From Streptomyces sp. NBC_01231 (GTDB taxonomy: Bacteria; Actinomycetota; Actinomycetes; Streptomycetales; Streptomycetaceae), in contig CP108521.1 of the NCBI GenBank assembly GCA_035999765.1, positions 7,440,001-7,504,000 of the forward strand: 64,000 nucleotides of DNA, in the 5' to 3' direction. The notes under the pieces are model-generated. The model worked only from the letters and a program-made list of their open reading frames with translations. It ran no database searches and had not been told where the DNA came from. A program made the translations under genes and the position numbers. Shown here piece after piece: positions 15,669 to 23,924 of this stretch. Position 1 is the stretch's first letter. Each line of letters begins with the position of its first letter.

Positions 15669-16229
15669 ATGCAGTCAAGCAACGGTCGCCCCCGCGGAGT
15701 CGGCAGGGGTGACGAGAGTTCGGTCGGCCACCACGATGTCCATGATCTCGCTTCCACGGAGGTGGCCGGAGGCGTGAGGTACGACGACCCCTGGTACGAC
15801 GCCCTCGCATCCGGCTGGGGCGAGTCGGCCGGCGCCGCGGTGCCTGTTCCTGTGGACTCGTCGGGACGTCGGCAGTACGAGGTCCCTGTTGCCGACGCGG
15901 CAGATGTGTACCTGTTGGTGCAGCGCAGTGAAGCCTTCCAGGAGGTGCGCAGTCGCTACCGGAGGTTCGTTGTGCCGGCGGCGGCGGGGTTCTTCGTCTG
16001 GTATCTGGCCTACGTGGTGACCGCCACGACCGCGCCGGGACTGATGGCACGGCCCGTCGCGGGCGCCGTGAACGTGGCGATGGTGGCGGGACTCGGGCAG
16101 TTCCTCACGACCTTTCTGCTCACCTGGGCGTACGCCTGGCATGCGAGGCTGCGCCGGGACCGCACCGCGCTGGAACTGCGCTGGGACACCCAGGAACTGA
16201 CACGAGGTTTGCGGGGAGGCTCATCGTGA
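15669..16229 (+). CDS. DUF485 membrane protein, partner of the sodium/solute symporter
   Basis: This 186-residue protein has a DUF485 core at about residues 80-185 with two membrane helices (FVVPAAAGFFVWYLAYVVTA; GAVNVAMVAGLGQFLTTFLLTWAYAW). It is the equivalent of YjcH, encoded before the acetate permease ActP in many bacteria. Its stop overlaps the symporter start (GTGA). The N-terminal 35 residues have weak coding character and there is no clear ribosome binding site for ATG 15669 or TTG 15663. GTG 15774, directly before RYDDPWYDALASGW, is a plausible shorter start. Confidence 0.8.
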   Translation: MQSSNGRPRGVGRGDESSVGHHDVHDLASTEVAGGVRYDDPWYDALASGWGESAGAAVPVPVDSSGRRQYEVPVADAADVYLLVQRSEAFQEVRSRYRRFVVPAAAGFFVWYLAYVVTATTAPGLMARPVAGAVNVAMVAGLGQFLTTFLLTWAYAWHARLRRDRTALELRWDTQELTRGLRGGSS

Positions 16230-17818
16230 CGGTTGACCATCAGACGCTGGCATTGCTGCTGTTCAGCGCGTTCGTCGCGGTCACTCTGGGGATCACGACG
16301 TGGGTGAGCAGGCATCGGCAGGGTTCGGCGGAGGAGTTCTACGCGGGCGGCCGTCTCTTCTCCCCGATGGAGAATGGTTTTGCCATCGCGGGCGACTACA
16401 TGTCGGCCGCGTCCTTCCTCGGGATCTCCGGGCTGATCGCCCTCTTCGGGTACGACGGGCTGCTGTACTCGGTCGGGTTCCTCGTGGCCTGGCTCGTGGT
16501 GTTGTTCCTGGTTGCCGAACTGGTCCGTAACTGCGGGCGGTTCACGCTCGCCGACGTGGTCGTGTCGCGGATGAGTGAGCGGCCCGTGCGGATCGCGGCG
16601 GGGACCTCCTCGGTCACCGTTTCCGTTCTGTATCTGGTGGCGCAGATGGTGGGCGCGGGCAGTCTGGTCGCGCTGCTGCTAGGAGGGACCAGCGCAGCGG
16701 CGCAGTCCTGGACGGTCATCGGGGTCGGCGCACTCATGGTGATCTATGTGTCGTTCGGAGGGATGCGGGCCACCACCTGGATCCAGATCGTCAAGGCGGT
16801 GCTGCTGCTCGGCGGAACCGTCGCCCTGACCGTGCTCGTCCTTCTGCGATTCCGCGGCGACTTCGACCAGTTGCTCCTCACGGCGGCGGAGCGCAGTGGT
16901 CACGGCAAGGCGTTCCTGGCGCCCGGTCTGCGGTACGGCGGGGACTGGACGGCCCGCTTCGACTTCATCAGCCTGGGACTCGCGTTGGTGCTGGGTACGG
17001 CCGGGCTGCCGCACATCCTGTCCCGCTTCTACACCGTGCCCACCGCGCGGGCCGCACGGCGTTCCGTCGTCTGGTCGATCGGGCTCATCGGCGGCTTCTA
17101 TCTCATGACGATCGTCCTCGGTTTCGGCGCGGCGGCGATCGTGGGGCCGGACGCCGTCCGTGGATCGAACGCGGCCGGGAACACGGCCGTTCCGCTTCTT
17201 GCCCTTGATCTGGGCGGAGGCGCGAACTCCACGGGAGGAACGGTTTTCTTCGCGATCGTCGCCGCGATCGCCTTCGCCACGATTCTCGCCGTGGTCGCCG
17301 GGATCACGCTGGCCTCTTCGGCGTCCGTGGCCCACGACCTGTACGCGTCGCTACGTCGTCGGCAAGCCAAGCCGCGCAGCGAGGTGGCCGTGGCACGGAT
17401 CGCCGCGGTCGGTGTCGGAGTCGTAGCGATCGCTCTCGGCCTGCTGGCGCGGGATCTCAACGTGGCGTTCCTGGTGGGCCTCGCCTTCGCGGTCGCCGCG
17501 TCCGCCAACCTGCCGGTGCTGCTCTACTCGCTGTTCTGGCGCGGTTTCACCACGCGCGGTGCCGTCTGGTCCGTCTACGGCGGCCTGATCCCGGCCGTGG
17601 TCCTCGTCGTGCTGTCACCGGTGGTGTCCGGCAGTCCTGAGTCACTGTTCCCTGGTGTCGACTTCCAGTACTTCCCGTTGCAGAACCCCGGACTCGTCTC
17701 GATCCCGCTCGGCTTCCTCGCCGGCTGGCTCGGCACGGTCACCTCGGCGGAACTGCCCGACGAGGCCAAGCACGCGGAGACCGAGGTGCGGTCGCTGACG
17801 GGGGCGGGGGCCGTGTAG
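16226..17818 (+). CDS. Sodium/monocarboxylate symporter (SSS family, ActP/MctC-like)
   Basis: This 530-residue protein has about 13 transmembrane helices. The SSS features include the early EEFYAGGRLFSPMENGFAIAGDYMSAASFLGISG segment, characteristic of cation/acetate symporters, and the central GTAGLPHILSRFYTV motif. Likely substrates are acetate, propionate or pyruvate taken up with Na+ or H+ (family knowledge); the exact substrate is not readable from sequence. It forms a pair with the DUF485 gene and lies beside a CitA-type two-component system and two citrate synthases, consistent with a role in feeding acetyl-CoA metabolism. A short hairpin follows. Confidence 0.92.
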   Translation: MTVDHQTLALLLFSAFVAVTLGITTWVSRHRQGSAEEFYAGGRLFSPMENGFAIAGDYMSAASFLGISGLIALFGYDGLLYSVGFLVAWLVVLFLVAELVRNCGRFTLADVVVSRMSERPVRIAAGTSSVTVSVLYLVAQMVGAGSLVALLLGGTSAAAQSWTVIGVGALMVIYVSFGGMRATTWIQIVKAVLLLGGTVALTVLVLLRFRGDFDQLLLTAAERSGHGKAFLAPGLRYGGDWTARFDFISLGLALVLGTAGLPHILSRFYTVPTARAARRSVVWSIGLIGGFYLMTIVLGFGAAAIVGPDAVRGSNAAGNTAVPLLALDLGGGANSTGGTVFFAIVAAIAFATILAVVAGITLASSASVAHDLYASLRRRQAKPRSEVAVARIAAVGVGVVAIALGLLARDLNVAFLVGLAFAVAASANLPVLLYSLFWRGFTTRGAVWSVYGGLIPAVVLVVLSPVVSGSPESLFPGVDFQYFPLQNPGLVSIPLGFLAGWLGTVTSAELPDEAKHAETEVRSLTGAGAV

Positions 17819-17821
17819 GAG

Positions 17822-17840
17822 ACGGCGCCTTCAGCGCCGT
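17822..17840. terminator. Short hairpin between convergent genes
   Basis: Seven-base-pair stem ACGGCGC/GCGCCGT with loop CTTCA, between the convergent symporter and response-regulator genes. Weak, no T run. Confidence 0.45.
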
Positions 17841-17885
17841 ACGGGAACCGGCTGACGGGGTCGGCGGGGCGGACCAGGCCGTACC

Positions 17886-18569
17886 TCAGGGGCGGGTCGC
17901 CCATACATAACGGTGTTCCGGGCGGCCGGCGTCGCCGTACTTGAGGGTGAGTCTGGCCCGCCCCGTGCGCTCCAGGAGCTTCAGATAGCGCTGGGCCGTC
18001 TGGCGGCTCACCCCTGTGCGCTCGGCGATCTCCTGGGCCGACAGGGGCCCTTCGGCGTTCATCAGAGACTGCCTTACGAGCTCCGCGGTGGTGGGGGAGT
18101 GGCCTTTGGGCAGTCCGGGCTCGGACGGTGTCGACAGGGCGCCGAAGATGCGGTCCACCTCGGCCTGTTCCGCCTCGCCGCCACCGTCCAGGGTGCGTCT
18201 CAGCTGCGCGTAGGCCTCCAGCTTGGCGCGCAGTCCCGCGAAGGCGAACGGCTTGACCAGGTACTGCAGGGCACCCTGCCGCATCGCCGCCTGCACGGTC
18301 GTCACGTCCCGGGCCGCCGTGACCATGATCACGTCGGTCTGATGACCGCGCCGGCGCATCTCCTGGACGACCGCCAGCCCCGTCTCGTCCGGCAGATAGT
18401 GGTCCAGCAGAACCAGGTCCAGGCGGGTCGGCCCCTCCAACTGACGCAGCGCCTCCGCCGCGTTGTGCGCCACCCCGGCCACATGGAAGCCGGGAACCTT
18501 CTCCACGTAGGCGGCGTTGACCCGCGCCACCCGGGTGTCGTCGTCCACCACCAGGACCTCGATCATCAC
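17886..18569 (-). CDS. Response regulator of the CitB/DcuR type
   Basis: This 227-residue regulator has a receiver domain with acidic pocket VVDDD, phospho-acceptor Asp in LVLLDHYLP and Lys in YLVKPFAF. A C-terminal winged-helix/HTH (GHSPTTAELVRQSL, SAQEIAERTGVSRQTAQRYLKLLERTGRARLTLKYG) is typical of CitB-family regulators, which respond to citrate or C4-dicarboxylates. It overlaps the kinase gene by four bases (ATGA). It faces the symporter convergently. Confidence 0.93.
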   Translation of the reverse strand: MMIEVLVVDDDTRVARVNAAYVEKVPGFHVAGVAHNAAEALRQLEGPTRLDLVLLDHYLPDETGLAVVQEMRRRGHQTDVIMVTAARDVTTVQAAMRQGALQYLVKPFAFAGLRAKLEAYAQLRRTLDGGGEAEQAEVDRIFGALSTPSEPGLPKGHSPTTAELVRQSLMNAEGPLSAQEIAERTGVSRQTAQRYLKLLERTGRARLTLKYGDAGRPEHRYVWATRP

Positions 18570-20257
18570 GACTCCTCCTCGGGGGCGGACTGGGGGGCGG
18601 ACTGCTGTGCGGCCGGCGTACTGAGCGCCGGTTCCCGGTCCGGCACGGCCAGTGCCTCCGGCAGGACGACGGTGAACTCCGCGCCTCCGTCTTCCGCCTC
18701 ACCGACGGTAGCGCTGCCACCCTGCCGTTCGGCGAGCTTGCGCACCAGGGACAGCCCGATTCCGCGCTTGCGATGTGCCGGAGGCGTCTTCGTGGACCAT
18801 CCCTCCATGAAGATCAACTCACGCTGTTCCGCCGGGATTCCGGGCCCCGTGTCACGGACTCGGAGGATGACGGTACGTCCATCCGCCCGCAGCTCGACCT
18901 CGACGCGCGCGTGGAGCGTGCCCGCGACGGCGTCCAGCGCGTTGTCCACCAGGTTGCCGACCACCGTGACCAGTCCGCGGGGGTCGACCAGCCGGTCCGG
19001 CAGCCGGGTACGGTCCGAGACCCACAGGGCGACTCCCCGCTCGGCCGCCACAGTCGCCTTGCCGACCAACAGCGCGGCAAGCAGAGGATCATGGACCTTC
19101 TCGGTCACCTGTTCAGCGGTGACGCGGTGGTCACCGACGACCTCACCGACGAACTCCACGGCGTCCTCGTACATCTCCAGTTCCAGCAGCCCGAGCAGCG
19201 TATGCATGCGGTTGGCGTGCTCGTGGTCCTGGGCGCGCAGAGCGTCGATCAGGCCGCGCGTGGAGTCGAGTTCCCGGCCGAGCTGCTCCAGTTCGGTGCG
19301 GTCACGCAGGGTGGCCACGGCGCCACCGTCGTCGGTGGGCATGCGGTTGGCGACCAGTACCCGCTGACCGCGGACGGTGAGCAGGTCGGTGCCCGTCACC
19401 CGGCCCGCCAGGACATCCGCGGTACGGCCCTCGCCGAGCGCTTCGTCGGGAGTGCGGCCGACGGACTCGTCTCCGATGCCCAGCAGTCGCTGCGCCTCGT
19501 CGTTGAGTAGGCGGACGCGGCCCGCGCGGTCCAGGGCGACGACACCCTCCCGGATGCCGTGCAGCATCGCCTCGCGCTCCGCGAGGAGCCCCGAGATGTC
19601 CGAGAAGGCGAGGTCCCGGGTCTGCCGATGGACCCGGCGGGATATGAGCCAGGCGGCGAGCGCGCCGACGGCCAGGGCACCTCCGGCGTACGCGAAGAGC
19701 CCCGGGATCGCGTGGATCAGACGGGCCCGCACGCTGTCGTACGCGATACCCACCGAGACCGCGCCGACGATGCCGCCGTGGCTGTCGCGCAGAGGCACCT
19801 TGCCGCGTGCGGAGCGGCCCAGGGTGCCACTGTCTATCTCCATGACCTCCTTGCCGGCCAGGGCCAGGTGGGGGTCGGTCGAGACGGTTCTGCCGACCTC
19901 CCCGGGAGTCGGGTGGGACCAGCGCACGCCCCGTCGGTCCATCACCACGATGTACTCGGCGTGAGTGGCCTTGCGGATCCGTTCCGCGATCTTCTGGACG
20001 GGCCCGTCGGCTGTCGCAGGAGTGGTCCTGACCTCGTCGGCGATCCCCGGCTCGGCGGCCGTGGTCTGCGCGATGGCGAGCGCGCGGCGCATCGCCTGGT
20101 CGTCCAGCTGAGCGCTGAGCGGCGCGAGGAACAGTCCGGTCGCGAGCACCGCGACTCCTGCGGCGATCGCCAACTGCATCAGCAGGACCTGCGAGAACAT
20201 GCGCCTCGGCAGTCCGAGGCGCAGGCGGCGGGCGGCGGGAGTGGGGCTCATACCCAT
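18566..20257 (-). CDS. Sensor histidine kinase of the CitA/DcuS type
   Basis: This 563-residue kinase has an N-terminal membrane helix (about 20-45) and a periplasmic-type PAS/Cache sensor (about 50-180; AEYIVVMDRRGVRWSHPTPGE). A second helix (LFAYAGGALAVGALAAWLI) precedes a cytoplasmic PAS domain (MLHGIREGVVALDRAGRVRLLN). The phospho-acceptor H lies in the QDHEHANRMHTLLGLLEL box, followed by an HATPase domain (NLVDNALDA, DTGPGIP, KRGIGLSLVRKLAE). This architecture senses citrate, malate or other carboxylates outside the cell. A TTGATCAA box lies upstream on the same side. The start is uncertain by two residues (second ATG at 20251); no strong ribosome binding site is visible. Confidence 0.93.
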   Translation of the reverse strand: MGMSPTPAARRLRLGLPRRMFSQVLLMQLAIAAGVAVLATGLFLAPLSAQLDDQAMRRALAIAQTTAAEPGIADEVRTTPATADGPVQKIAERIRKATHAEYIVVMDRRGVRWSHPTPGEVGRTVSTDPHLALAGKEVMEIDSGTLGRSARGKVPLRDSHGGIVGAVSVGIAYDSVRARLIHAIPGLFAYAGGALAVGALAAWLISRRVHRQTRDLAFSDISGLLAEREAMLHGIREGVVALDRAGRVRLLNDEAQRLLGIGDESVGRTPDEALGEGRTADVLAGRVTGTDLLTVRGQRVLVANRMPTDDGGAVATLRDRTELEQLGRELDSTRGLIDALRAQDHEHANRMHTLLGLLELEMYEDAVEFVGEVVGDHRVTAEQVTEKVHDPLLAALLVGKATVAAERGVALWVSDRTRLPDRLVDPRGLVTVVGNLVDNALDAVAGTLHARVEVELRADGRTVILRVRDTGPGIPAEQRELIFMEGWSTKTPPAHRKRGIGLSLVRKLAERQGGSATVGEAEDGGAEFTVVLPEALAVPDREPALSTPAAQQSAPQSAPEEES

Positions 20258-21388: not shown

Positions 21389-22645
21389 CTACTCCGGCAG
21401 GGGCTGCGGCGGCCGTGGGCCCACATAGTGGCCGCTCGGGCGCATACGCAGCGGCCGTTCGCCGTATTCCTCCAGAGCGTGCGCGATCCAGCCCGCCGTA
21501 CGGGCCACCGCGAAGATCGTCTCGCTGGCCGTGGCGGGCATGCCGGAGGAAGCGGTGAGCACGCCCAGGGCCAGGTCGACATTGGCGTGCAGGGGCGAGT
21601 GGCGAGCGGAGGTGGCCACGATGTCGCGAGCCGCGGCGAGGGCCGGTGCGGCCCTGGGGATGTCCTCAAGGAGGTCGAAGAGGACACGCGCGCGGGGGTC
21701 CTCGCCGGGGTAGAGGCGATGGCCGAGTCCGGGAATGCGCCGCCCGGCCCGCAGCTCGTCGGCGATCACGGGTGCCGCGTCGCCCTGGTCGAGTACCTCG
21801 AGCAGCAGCTTGTGGGCGAGTCCGCCGGCCGCGCCGTGCAGCGGCCCCTCGATCACGCCGAGCCCGGCGGAGACGGCTGCGTAGGCGTGCGCGCGGGCCG
21901 ACGCCGCGACGCGCACGGCGAGGGTGGAGGCGGCGAGGTCGTGGTCCACGAGCAGGGCGAGTGCCGTGTCCAGCGCACGCAGGGACGCCGCGTCGGCCGT
22001 GCGTACGCTGAGGCGGGCCCACAGCCGGTGGGCGAGTGGGCCGTCGTCCCGATGGTCGTGCCGGGCGAGGGGCAGGGCGGCGACCAGCGTCGGGATCAGG
22101 CTGCGCGCCGTACCGAGCACCGCTTCTTCGGACAGGTCGAAGCGCAGTGGGTCCGCGGCCGCGGCGGCGATCGCCGCGACCCGCAACCGGTCGGTCGGCG
22201 CGGTGTGTTCGGGCAGGGCGTCGACCGCGCGGCGGGCGGCGGTGACGGCTGCCTCAGGTGCCACGAAGGTGGCGCCGGGATGCAACTGCCCCGTCCACAG
22301 CCACTCGGCGACCTCTTCGTAGGAGTGGCGCGAGGCCAGTTCGGTCGCGTCCACGCCGCGGAAGTAGTAGCGGTCGGTGTCGATGAGCGTGATGCGGGTG
22401 CGTACGGACAGCTCGCCTCCGGAGCCCGAAGTCCCGCTGCCCTCCCGTCGGTTGCGCCGGGCGAGCGCCTCCACCTCCTTGGCGTCGAAGGTGCTGCCCC
22501 GGCCACCGGGTACACGCCTGCTGCTGAGCTGCCCACGGCTCACGTACGCGTACACGGTCTCGGGCTTCACGCCGAGCAGCTCGGCGGCCTCTTTGGTACT
22601 CAGCCGCTGTCCGGTGGGGCCGGGGTGAGGTTCGTGATCGCGCAT
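21389..22645 (-). CDS. Citrate synthase with N-terminal MerR/excisionase-like HTH DNA-binding domain
   Basis: This 418-residue protein is a fusion. Residues 14-65 (LSTKEAAELLGVKPETVYAY, then a wing with VPGGRGSTF and FDAKEVEALARR) form a MerR/excisionase-type helix-turn-helix. A Ser/Gly linker leads at about residue 82 to a full citrate synthase domain. Catalytic positions appear intact: H235 in VDHDLAAST, H270 in EGPLHG, H309 in GLGHRLYPGEDPR and D357 in HANVDLALG. It could be active, substrate-sensing, or both. The ATG is eight bases after a TACGGT hexamer and lacks a ribosome binding site, so a near-leaderless transcript is likely. The spacer to the divergent citrate synthase gene carries five TTGATT-type boxes, a probable operator for this protein (inference). 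Confidence 0.92.
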   Translation of the reverse strand: MRDHEPHPGPTGQRLSTKEAAELLGVKPETVYAYVSRGQLSSRRVPGGRGSTFDAKEVEALARRNRREGSGTSGSGGELSVRTRITLIDTDRYYFRGVDATELASRHSYEEVAEWLWTGQLHPGATFVAPEAAVTAARRAVDALPEHTAPTDRLRVAAIAAAAADPLRFDLSEEAVLGTARSLIPTLVAALPLARHDHRDDGPLAHRLWARLSVRTADAASLRALDTALALLVDHDLAASTLAVRVAASARAHAYAAVSAGLGVIEGPLHGAAGGLAHKLLLEVLDQGDAAPVIADELRAGRRIPGLGHRLYPGEDPRARVLFDLLEDIPRAAPALAAARDIVATSARHSPLHANVDLALGVLTASSGMPATASETIFAVARTAGWIAHALEEYGERPLRMRPSGHYVGPRPPQPLPE

Positions 22646-22653
22646 AAGACATC

Positions 22654-22742
22654 ACCGTATCTGCAACCTGGTGTGTTGATTCACATGCGTTGATTCAATC
22701 AATATTGACACAGATTAAATCAATCATGGACAGTTAAATCAA
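22654..22742. promoter_or_regulatory. Divergent citrate synthase promoter/operator region with TTGATT/AATCAA boxes
   Basis: This AT-rich spacer has five matching hexamers: TTGATT at 22676-22681 and 22690-22695, AATCAA at 22697-22702, 22718-22723 and 22737-22742. Boxes two and three form TTGATTCAATCAA, a perfect palindrome around one base. Boxes four and five are the 9-base direct repeat TTAAATCAA at 19-base spacing. The minus-strand -10 TACGGT (22654-22659) puts the -35 of the HTH gene inside box one. TTGACA at 22705-22710 is a plus-strand -35 candidate without a clear -10. Confidence 0.65.
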
Positions 22743-22757
22743 GTCCAGGGAGGAATC

Positions 22758-23924
22758 ATGTCCGTCAACAGGTCAGCAGGCACTCTCGTCGAGGTTCCGC
22801 GCGGGCTCGCGGGAGTCGTCGTCACCGACACTGAGATCGGGGACGTCAGGGGAGTCGAGGGCTTTTATCACTACCGTCAGTACTCGGCGGTCGAACTGGC
22901 GAAGGCCCGTGGGTTCGAGGACGTATGGCATCTCCTGGTCCACGGTGAACTGCCGGACGCCGCTCGTTCGGCCGCCTTCGCCGTGGAGACCGCCGCGCTG
23001 CGCCGGCTGCCCGCCGAGGTCTGGGCCGCCCTGCCCGCTGTCGCCGCGGCGGGCAGGGGCGCCGGACCGCTCGCCGGGATGCGCACCGCGTTGTCGCTGC
23101 TGGGCGCGGCGAAGGGCTTCCGTCCGGTGTACGACCTCGACGCGAACCGGCGCCGCGAGGACACCCTCGTCGCGACCGCGGCCGTGCCGACGCTCCTTGC
23201 CGCACTGCACCGACTGGGCCGGGGCCTCGATCCCGTGGAGCCGCGGGAGGACCTCTCGTACGCGGCCAACTACCTCTACATGGTGACGGGTTCGGAGCCG
23301 GAGCCGCAGCGGGCCCGTGCGATCGAGCAGTACCTGATCTCAACCATTGACCACGGATTCAATGCATCAACGTTCACGGCTCGGGTCATCGCGTCCACAG
23401 GAGCGGACGTGTCGGCGTGCCTCGTGGGGGCGGTGGGGGCGTTGTCCGGTCCGCTGCACGGCGGTGCTCCCAGCCGTGCGCTGGACACGCTCGACGCGAT
23501 CGGTACGCCGGACCGAGTCGACTCCTGGATCCGCGAGCGCGTCCTGGCCGGTGAGCGCATCATGGGCTTCGGTCATGCGATCTACCGCACGGAGGACCCC
23601 CGTTCCCGCATGCTCCGTGAGATCGCCCGGCGGTTCGGCGGTCCACGCGTCGACTTCGCCGTCGAGGTCGAGCGCCAGGTAGAGCGGATACTCGCCGAAC
23701 TGAAGCCCGGCCGGGAACTCCACACCAACGTCGAGTTCTACGCCGGAGTGGTCATGGAGCTGTGCGATCTGCCGCGCGAGATGTTCACCCCCACCTTCGC
23801 GGCGGGGCGCGTGGTGGGCTGGAGCGCCAACATCCTGGAACAGGCGGCCGACTCGAAGATCATCAGGCCGGTGGCGCGGTATGTGGGGCCGGGGGCGCCG
23901 GTCGACGTGCCGCGGGGCGCCTGA
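22758..23924 (+). CDS. citA: Citrate synthase
   Basis: This 388-residue enzyme condenses oxaloacetate and acetyl-CoA (possibly also propionyl-CoA) in the TCA cycle. Family motifs are IDHGFNASTFTARV, SGPLHGGAP with H234 and MGFGHAIYRTEDPRS with H273. The third catalytic position, normally Asp in NVDFY, is Glu here (E326 in TNVEFYAG), a conservative change to note. ATG 22758 has a strong GGGAGGA. It is divergent from the HTH-fused paralogue across the TTGATT-box region. A stretch of unusually AT-ending codons at 200-205 creates a similar box inside the gene. A hairpin terminator follows. The symbol is by analogy with Streptomyces citA. Confidence 0.93.
   Translation: MSVNRSAGTLVEVPRGLAGVVVTDTEIGDVRGVEGFYHYRQYSAVELAKARGFEDVWHLLVHGELPDAARSAAFAVETAALRRLPAEVWAALPAVAAAGRGAGPLAGMRTALSLLGAAKGFRPVYDLDANRRREDTLVATAAVPTLLAALHRLGRGLDPVEPREDLSYAANYLYMVTGSEPEPQRARAIEQYLISTIDHGFNASTFTARVIASTGADVSACLVGAVGALSGPLHGGAPSRALDTLDAIGTPDRVDSWIRERVLAGERIMGFGHAIYRTEDPRSRMLREIARRFGGPRVDFAVEVERQVERILAELKPGRELHTNVEFYAGVVMELCDLPREMFTPTFAAGRVVGWSANILEQAADSKIIRPVARYVGPGAPVDVPRGA
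23356..23370. promoter_or_regulatory. Intragenic operator-like box in citA
   Basis: GATTCAAT-GC-ATCAA resembles the palindromic box GATTCAATCAA of the upstream spacer. It falls in codons 200-205 (GF NAST), written with A/T-ending codons that the genome otherwise avoids. Confidence 0.35.

Follow-up and report, generated by a model that had tools for sequence, protein, structure and literature searches.

Enzyme-derived DNA-binding regulators, or trigger enzymes, include PutA, NadR, BirA and the MocR/PdxR proteins. To our knowledge, none of these employs a citrate synthase as its sensing domain. The protein considered here, a helix-turn-helix (HTH) fused to a citrate synthase and known from its sequence, has in common with them a metabolic enzyme and a DNA-binding domain on one chain, located at a neighbouring metabolic promoter. 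A conserved operator that co-occurs with the protein, which is a mark of an enzyme-derived regulator, was also found. The accessible portion of the open-access PMC literature contained no earlier description of an HTH-citrate synthase regulator. In Caulobacter, CitA is a checkpoint citrate synthase whose regulatory role is independent of catalysis (PMC7083601). Its regulatory role is the point of likeness to the fusion; neither helix-turn-helix nor HTH appears as a term in the available text of that report. The same source describes CitB, which complements an E. coli ΔgltA strain, and CitC, the product of the next locus tag, which fails to do so (PMC7083601). By analogy, CitB and CitC could be a partner and fusion pair of the kind described below; a literature search on the two locus tags returned no further description. 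Were CitC a member of the fusion family, its inability to complement would be telling.

The corresponding locus of S. coelicolor is SCO5831/SCO5832 (citA3/citA4), which is found in the same order beside a Suc_Fer gene and a two-component pair and contains an MtrA site in its spacer, reported at -92/-16 (PMC12323332). Both genes have been named as putative or citrate-synthase-like, and the accessible text of four papers makes no mention of an HTH or of DNA binding by SCO5831 (PMC12323332, PMC9739823, PMC8981147, PMC7324645). Proteomic work has detected the SCO5831 protein, with higher abundance under phosphate proficiency (PMC9739823, PMC8981147), and its transcript is altered by overexpression of SCO3201 (PMC7324645).

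The window is the whole 64,000-nucleotide stretch of Streptomyces sp. NBC_01231 DNA that was analysed. A first-pass annotation had proposed that it encodes an HTH fused to a citrate synthase domain, divergent from a second citrate synthase, and Pfam analysis confirmed both. The fusion gene (21389-22645, minus strand) encodes a protein of 418 aa with an N-terminal HTH_17 match at residues 15-66 (22448-22603, minus strand; 38.5 bits, cut-off 27), a shift of one residue from the 14-65 first given, followed by a Citrate_synt domain (PF00285) at residues 78-403 (21437-22414, minus strand; 217.3 bits, cut-off 27). The partner gene (22758-23924, plus strand) encodes 388 aa with a Citrate_synt score of 367.6 bits and a glutamate, E326, in place of the catalytic aspartate. 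Against NCBIfam NF009005 (PRK12350 citrate synthase, cut-off 332), the partner falls above the threshold at 346.4 and the fusion below it at 161.9. The fusion contains H235, H270, H309 and D357 together with R318, R382 and R402, which we take to be catalytic and substrate-binding residues according to pig citrate synthase numbering.

The N-terminus of the fusion also matches the MerR Pfam model (29.1 bits, cut-off 28.2) as a MerR-type winged HTH, a fold that is present in the predicted structure. The HTH_17 and MerR matches are shared with BldC; however, the fusion scores 25 bits against the HTH_BldC family model (cut-off 77) and is not a member. BldC also forms head-to-tail multimers on direct repeats (PMC5859096), whereas the inner site at this locus is a dyad. 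An AlphaFold2 model calculated from a 53-row alignment (pLDDT = 92.9) consists of the winged HTH, a short disordered linker (aa. 73-75) and a citrate synthase fold. Among the 53 aligned fusions, T30, Y32, A33, Y34, S36, R37 and G38 are invariant; the recognition helix spans approximately residues 28-36. The 50 PDB matches listed for the model were citrate or methylcitrate synthases, and in none of the 60 sequence matches listed did the best stretch extend into the HTH.

The 11.3-Mb single-contig genome from which the window was taken contains four citrate synthase genes, among which the partner ranks second by score and the fusion fourth. The name citA, given to the partner in the first-pass annotation, is therefore misleading since the best-scoring gene is elsewhere. 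The closest named relatives of the fusion, among the matches listed, belong to Streptomyces, with a protein of S. alboniger (P0003) being 98% identical; most are named simply as citrate synthase in their source and a few as helix-turn-helix domain-containing protein. The genes for a response regulator, a histidine kinase and a Suc_Fer protein precede the fusion. Since this order matches SCO5828-SCO5831 as far as it is described (PMC9739823), the fusion and the partner correspond in position to SCO5831 (citA3) and SCO5832 (citA4), respectively. The segment beside the pair (16226-20257) codes for a symporter of the sodium:solute type (SSF) and for a two-component pair, namely a response regulator and a histidine kinase whose sensor domain is sCache_3_2. 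This kinase is presumably of the kind associated with citrate or dicarboxylate sensing, and the symporter and two-component genes may share physiology with the citrate synthase pair.

The spacer between the fusion and the partner contains five TTGATT/AATCAA boxes, at 22676, 22690, 22697, 22718 and 22737, precisely as first described. A chance origin was rejected because, when the spacer was shuffled 5000 times with dinucleotides preserved, five boxes were never reached (mean 0.29). A palindrome, TTGATTCAATCAA, was likewise present at 22690-22702 as claimed, and belongs to a larger conserved unit. This unit was delineated by a comparison of 92 spacers from the genus, taken from loci whose fusion is 50% or more identical, with L001-L004, the duplicates L035-L038, L014 (genes on the same strand) and L067, L071 and L077 (no partner) left out; 91 could be anchored at 15 or more of the 21 core bases, with L102 being lost. 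Positions 22690-22710 are mostly near-invariant among the 91 and conservation continues to about 22742. The core operator, TTGATTCAATCAATATTGACA (22690-22710, plus strand), is composed of three half-sites with an inner dyad, ATCAATATTGAC, at 22698-22709, and together with the boxes near 22718 and 22737 forms a conserved footprint of 53 bp (22690-22742, plus strand). A direct repeat spaced by 19 bases had also been noted. While TTAAATCAA does recur at that pitch in the window, its form is not conserved, the genus consensus there being AGTCAA ... GAATCAA. The box at 22676-22681 (plus strand), which overlaps a possible -35 of the fusion gene and had been read as part of its promoter, is not conserved across the genus. 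The window genome has a single operator site, even when searched with a looser three-half-site pattern.

The distance from the core operator to the partner start is the steadier of the two (median 49, quartiles 47 and 62, range 12 to 344), whereas the distance to the fusion start is variable (median 38, quartiles 28 and 43, range -14 to 112); gene starts were taken from alignment to the window proteins, and the extremes include shifted starts. A likely -35 of the partner, TTGACA (22705-22710, plus strand), lies inside the operator and is conserved, and a likely -10, GACAGT (22729-22734, plus strand), follows after 18 bp. In this predicted promoter the operator dyad overlaps and precedes the -35. 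By definition, MerR family regulators act at a dyad between the -35 and -10, which are separated by a long spacer. In the other direction, the fusion has a likely -10, TACGGT (22654-22659, minus strand), which was recognized by eye as CACCGTA in most genus spacers and from which a near-leaderless transcript is predicted. The counterpart of the MtrA site, TTGACTTAACTGTCCA in S. coelicolor (PMC12323332) and TTGATTTAACTGTCCA here, is found at 22727-22742 (minus strand), just downstream of the core operator. If the published -16 refers to SCO5832, the offset between the MtrA site and the transcription start would fit the predicted partner promoter, including its -10.

The co-occurrence of operator and gene pair was assessed in 150 genomes of the genus. 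The fusion is present in 97, the partner in 94 and both in 93, which corresponds to 93 of the 98 genomes with either gene. The fusion count leaves out G144, where a C-terminal piece alone was found, and includes G102 and G112 (contig edges) and G019, G137 and G149 (two-piece matches); G102, a fragmented assembly, was scored as a fusion-only genome. A strict operator, TTGAYYNRRTCAAYRTTGAC, was identified in 85 of the 93 genomes with both genes and in none of the remaining 57 (fusion only 0/4, partner only 0/1, neither 0/52). It occurs once in each of the 85 genomes, with no match for the reversed control; 84 of these sites are in pair spacers and one (G032) precedes an inverted partner. Eight genomes with both genes do not have the exact pattern, and the looser three-half-site pattern scores in 88 of 92 spacers. 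Since genomes of one clade are not independent, the Fisher p-values calculated for co-occurrence are overstated and serve as guides only. The first-pass annotation had held that its proposal should fall if the boxes were not conserved in species carrying the same fusion gene, and the proposal survived this comparison.

Genomes that depart from the usual pair were inspected individually. In the partner-only genome (G027), different sequence takes over immediately before the -10, such that the -10 end is kept and the operator arms are gone; this is one case, in which a single rearrangement took the fusion and the operator arms together. In three genomes of the genus (L067, L071 and L077) the fusion is found without an adjacent partner and without an operator. 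In these three, the HTH and the enzyme domain both appear to be constrained (pN/pS 0.22-0.54, two pairs). The partner is thus not the only reason for the fusion to exist, and a further function is implied. Separately, the partner gene of G095 (L012, L133) and of G012 (L107, L132) appears to have been split by rearrangement, with the 5' part remaining beside the fusion and operator and the 3' part elsewhere in the genome. G003 encodes a second, distant fusion (L128:1725-2981, minus strand) in which two of the four catalytic residues are changed; neither an adjacent partner nor an operator was found within the 6.5 kb of that locus.

Across 296 phylum-wide genomes, the pattern TTGAYN{3,6}RTCAAYRTTGAY was found in 21 of 28 genomes with a fusion among the matches listed, compared with 15 of 268 others, giving 40 sites in all versus 8 for the reversed pattern. 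This fusion count includes G265, after reading of L141, and leaves out G176, which is at a contig edge. One genome of this set has a perfect operator (G287:C6:2865-2887) approximately 120 bp before a citrate synthase gene, with no match covering the HTH among those listed. In 190 Alphaproteobacteria, a local form of the operator, chosen after inspection of the 23 fusion loci of that set, occurs in 14 of the 23 genomes that have a fusion and in 4 of the other 167, with no match for the reversed control. The two-half-site core was present in 20 of these 23 loci and the three-half-site form in 16; one locus, L243, starts inside the gene and its HTH is not visible.

When 13 fusions were used to search species genomes, at least 80 loci were identified, which, among those listed, belong to six phyla (Actinomycetota, Pseudomonadota, Myxococcota, Chloroflexota, Gemmatimonadota and Acidobacteriota) and one unassigned lineage. 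Within 500 bp upstream of the fusion, the strict pattern was found in 39 of the 80 listed loci and the two-half-site core in 44. The form TTGAY-N3..8-RTCAA-NN-TTGAY, which allows any two bases between the inner half-sites and was widened after variants were seen in the same 80 loci, was found upstream of the fusion in 62, with no match for reversed and anagram controls. By group, the listed loci with this operator number 19 of 19 in Streptomyces, 12 of 19 in other Actinomycetota, 24 of 28 in Pseudomonadota, 3 of 5 in Chloroflexota, 1 of 6 in Myxococcota and 1 of 1 each in Gemmatimonadota, Acidobacteriota and the unassigned lineage. The gap between the outer and inner half-sites is mostly 3 or 7, and the operator is readable toward the divergent gene in 61 of the 62. 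From the phylum, named-locus and alphaproteobacterial sets, an explanation of box conservation by the closeness of Streptomyces species alone can be rejected. In 19 genomes behind named loci, the looser pattern gave 35 sites, from none to four in each, and one reversed-control site; the operator is therefore not unique per genome there.

Of the 80 listed loci, 18 have no three-half-site operator in the 500 bp preceding the fusion, and five of the six from Myxococcota are among them. In four of these 18, the operator or its core was found at the partner instead: L153, L172 (where two overlap) and L197 have a full operator before a partner that is tandem or displaced, and L176 has the core there. 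Similarly, the operator in L138 (G223) is at the partner, 1 kb away from the fusion. Since the operator stays with an inverted, tandem or displaced partner, comparison ties it to the target gene, on which the fusion would act from wherever it lies. This pattern, along with the near-fixed distance to the partner, disfavors the operator as the fusion's own control site. Thus, of the original proposal that the fusion regulates both its own promoter and the divergent gene, the second part is supported by co-occurrence, by the other phyla and by residue retention, while the first is not, given the variable distance to the fusion and the unconserved box at its -35. Control appears to be exerted mainly on the partner and not on the fusion itself, for which autoregulation is weakly supported.

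In ten scanned loci there is no adjacent citrate synthase partner. The divergent protein is HMGL-like in L137, L140, L148 and L210, a family III CoA-transferase in L169, L194, L196, L205 and L215, and a CitMHS citrate transporter in L158, where the fusion has two catalytic residues replaced. The three-half-site operator was present in L148, L158, L169, L194, L196, L210 and L215, and also in L137 and L140; in L205 it was not found within 500 bp upstream of the fusion. The best reading of these loci is that the regulated gene would there be the HMGL-like enzyme, the CoA-transferase or the citrate transporter. Two fusion loci (L158 and L175) occur together in a Bradyrhizobium genome (G440), which has as many operator sites; a citrate synthase lies opposite one fusion, and the CitMHS transporter opposite the other, whose catalytic residues are altered.

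The residues of the enzyme domain were compared within and beyond the genus. H235, H270, H309 and D357, which the first-pass annotation had judged intact, are so in all 95 genus fusion rows (94 genes, since L067 and L134 are the same gene). The view that the fusion is a dead enzyme in Streptomyces is consequently not supported, and the protein may still catalyse there. These intact residues, together with the apparent constraint on both domains in the three genomes without partner or operator, speak against a pure sensor. In the wider set, 65 of 74 fusions have HHHD at these positions and nine have lost the quartet, in eight changes on the tree, whereas one or more of R318, R382 and R402 was lost in one of 74. 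This imbalance is as expected if ligand binding outweighs turnover, and loss of catalytic residues with retained arginines would be expected of a sensor. The L184 fusion has lost H270 and H309 and has a lysine at R382, and its operator is still present. D357 is kept in 87 of 90 fusions. Partners have HHHE in 53 of 54 cases, the exception, L201, grouping with housekeeping enzymes; this count leaves out nine rows with aspartate (L166, L173, L177, L178, L185, L189, L190, L204 and L215), which are probably fusions missed by the HTH motif filter, passed by 68 of the 80 listed named loci. The same glutamate occurs in another citrate synthase of the window genome (L003) and aligns in the B. subtilis citrate synthase 2c6x, and so it was not concluded that the partner is a pseudo-enzyme. 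In a tree of 132 rows, made by a quick method and with some long branches, a single branch (SH-aLRT 99) separates all 74 fusions from the other rows, which is compatible with one origin of the fusion. The fusion and partner subtrees are similar by eye.

Taken as a whole, the fusion very probably acts as a regulator on the shared spacer, and it is likely, with good confidence, that it is an enzyme-derived one-component regulator of the adjacent citrate synthase. DNA binding, dimer geometry, ligand and direction of control are proposed as follows. The citrate synthase domain would form its usual dimer and bind a substrate or product of citrate synthase, most likely oxaloacetate, with an acyl-CoA adduct or citrate as other candidates, whereupon the pair of N-terminal winged HTHs would bind half-sites of TTGAY-N-RTCAA-NN-TTGAY. 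The first-pass annotation had suggested that oxaloacetate and acetyl-CoA could be the signals. As the inner dyad overlaps the -35 of the divergent partner, the simplest outcome of binding would be repression of the partner, lifted once the ligand signals demand. Activation that depends on ligand is considered somewhat less likely, with repression being modestly favored.

Alternatively, the fusion could simply be a metabolic citrate synthase with an HTH that is idle or otherwise used, with the boxes serving MtrA, the nearby two-component system or some other unlinked regulator. In the available portions of the published work, MtrA bound a probe of the spacer and citA3/citA4 rose late in a ΔmtrA strain (PMC12323332), and SCO5829/SCO5828 was suggested as a possible repressor of SCO5831 (PMC9739823). 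The catalytic residues intact throughout the genus and the constraint on the fusion in three genomes without partner or operator agree with such an enzyme. However, the MtrA-type site is downstream of the core operator, the residues of the recognition helix are invariant, and a common unlinked regulator is hard to imagine when operator and fusion are again found together in Pseudomonadota, Chloroflexota, Gemmatimonadota and Acidobacteriota; this explanation is rather unlikely. It is improbable as well that the Asp-type and Glu-type proteins form a mixed complex, with the HTH coupling its assembly to transcription and control being autogenous through both proteins. The consistent Asp/Glu split between fusions and partners, their joint presence in nearly all genus genomes with either gene and the resemblance of their subtrees would suit a complex, but the ten loci with another divergent gene show that the fusion can do without a second citrate synthase beside it. 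Very improbable is the suggestion that the boxes are mainly the partner core promoter, with its -35 TTGACA and neighbours, plus an MtrA- or GlnR-type site. TTGACA-N18-GACAGT does fit a promoter, in agreement with the published start offset as far as reported, but a pure promoter leaves unexplained the upstream TTGAY-N-RTCAA arms, their changing gap and their recurrence with the fusion in other phyla, many loci have no good -10 after the operator (8 of 61 across phyla versus 3.6 expected, a weak excess), and G027 keeps the -10 end and not the arms, albeit as a single rearrangement.

With the fusion read as a regulator of its neighbour, the wider picture is probably that of a family of one-component factors, found in at least six phyla and with a tree compatible with a single fusion origin, in which a citrate synthase domain would serve as the metabolite sensor. 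The operator, RTCAA-NN-TTGAY with a third half-site, would have been kept from Streptomyces to Proteobacteria; the targets would mostly be Glu-type citrate synthases and otherwise HMGL-like enzymes, CoA-transferases or a citrate transporter, and several lineages would have become catalytically altered, pure sensors. The fusion family and its operators point to widespread and so far undescribed gene switches built from an enzyme. If this is true, many annotated citrate synthases would be misnamed transcription factors, the loss of catalysis with binding retained could be traced lineage by lineage, and the entry step of the TCA cycle would have a built-in sensor in many soil bacteria.
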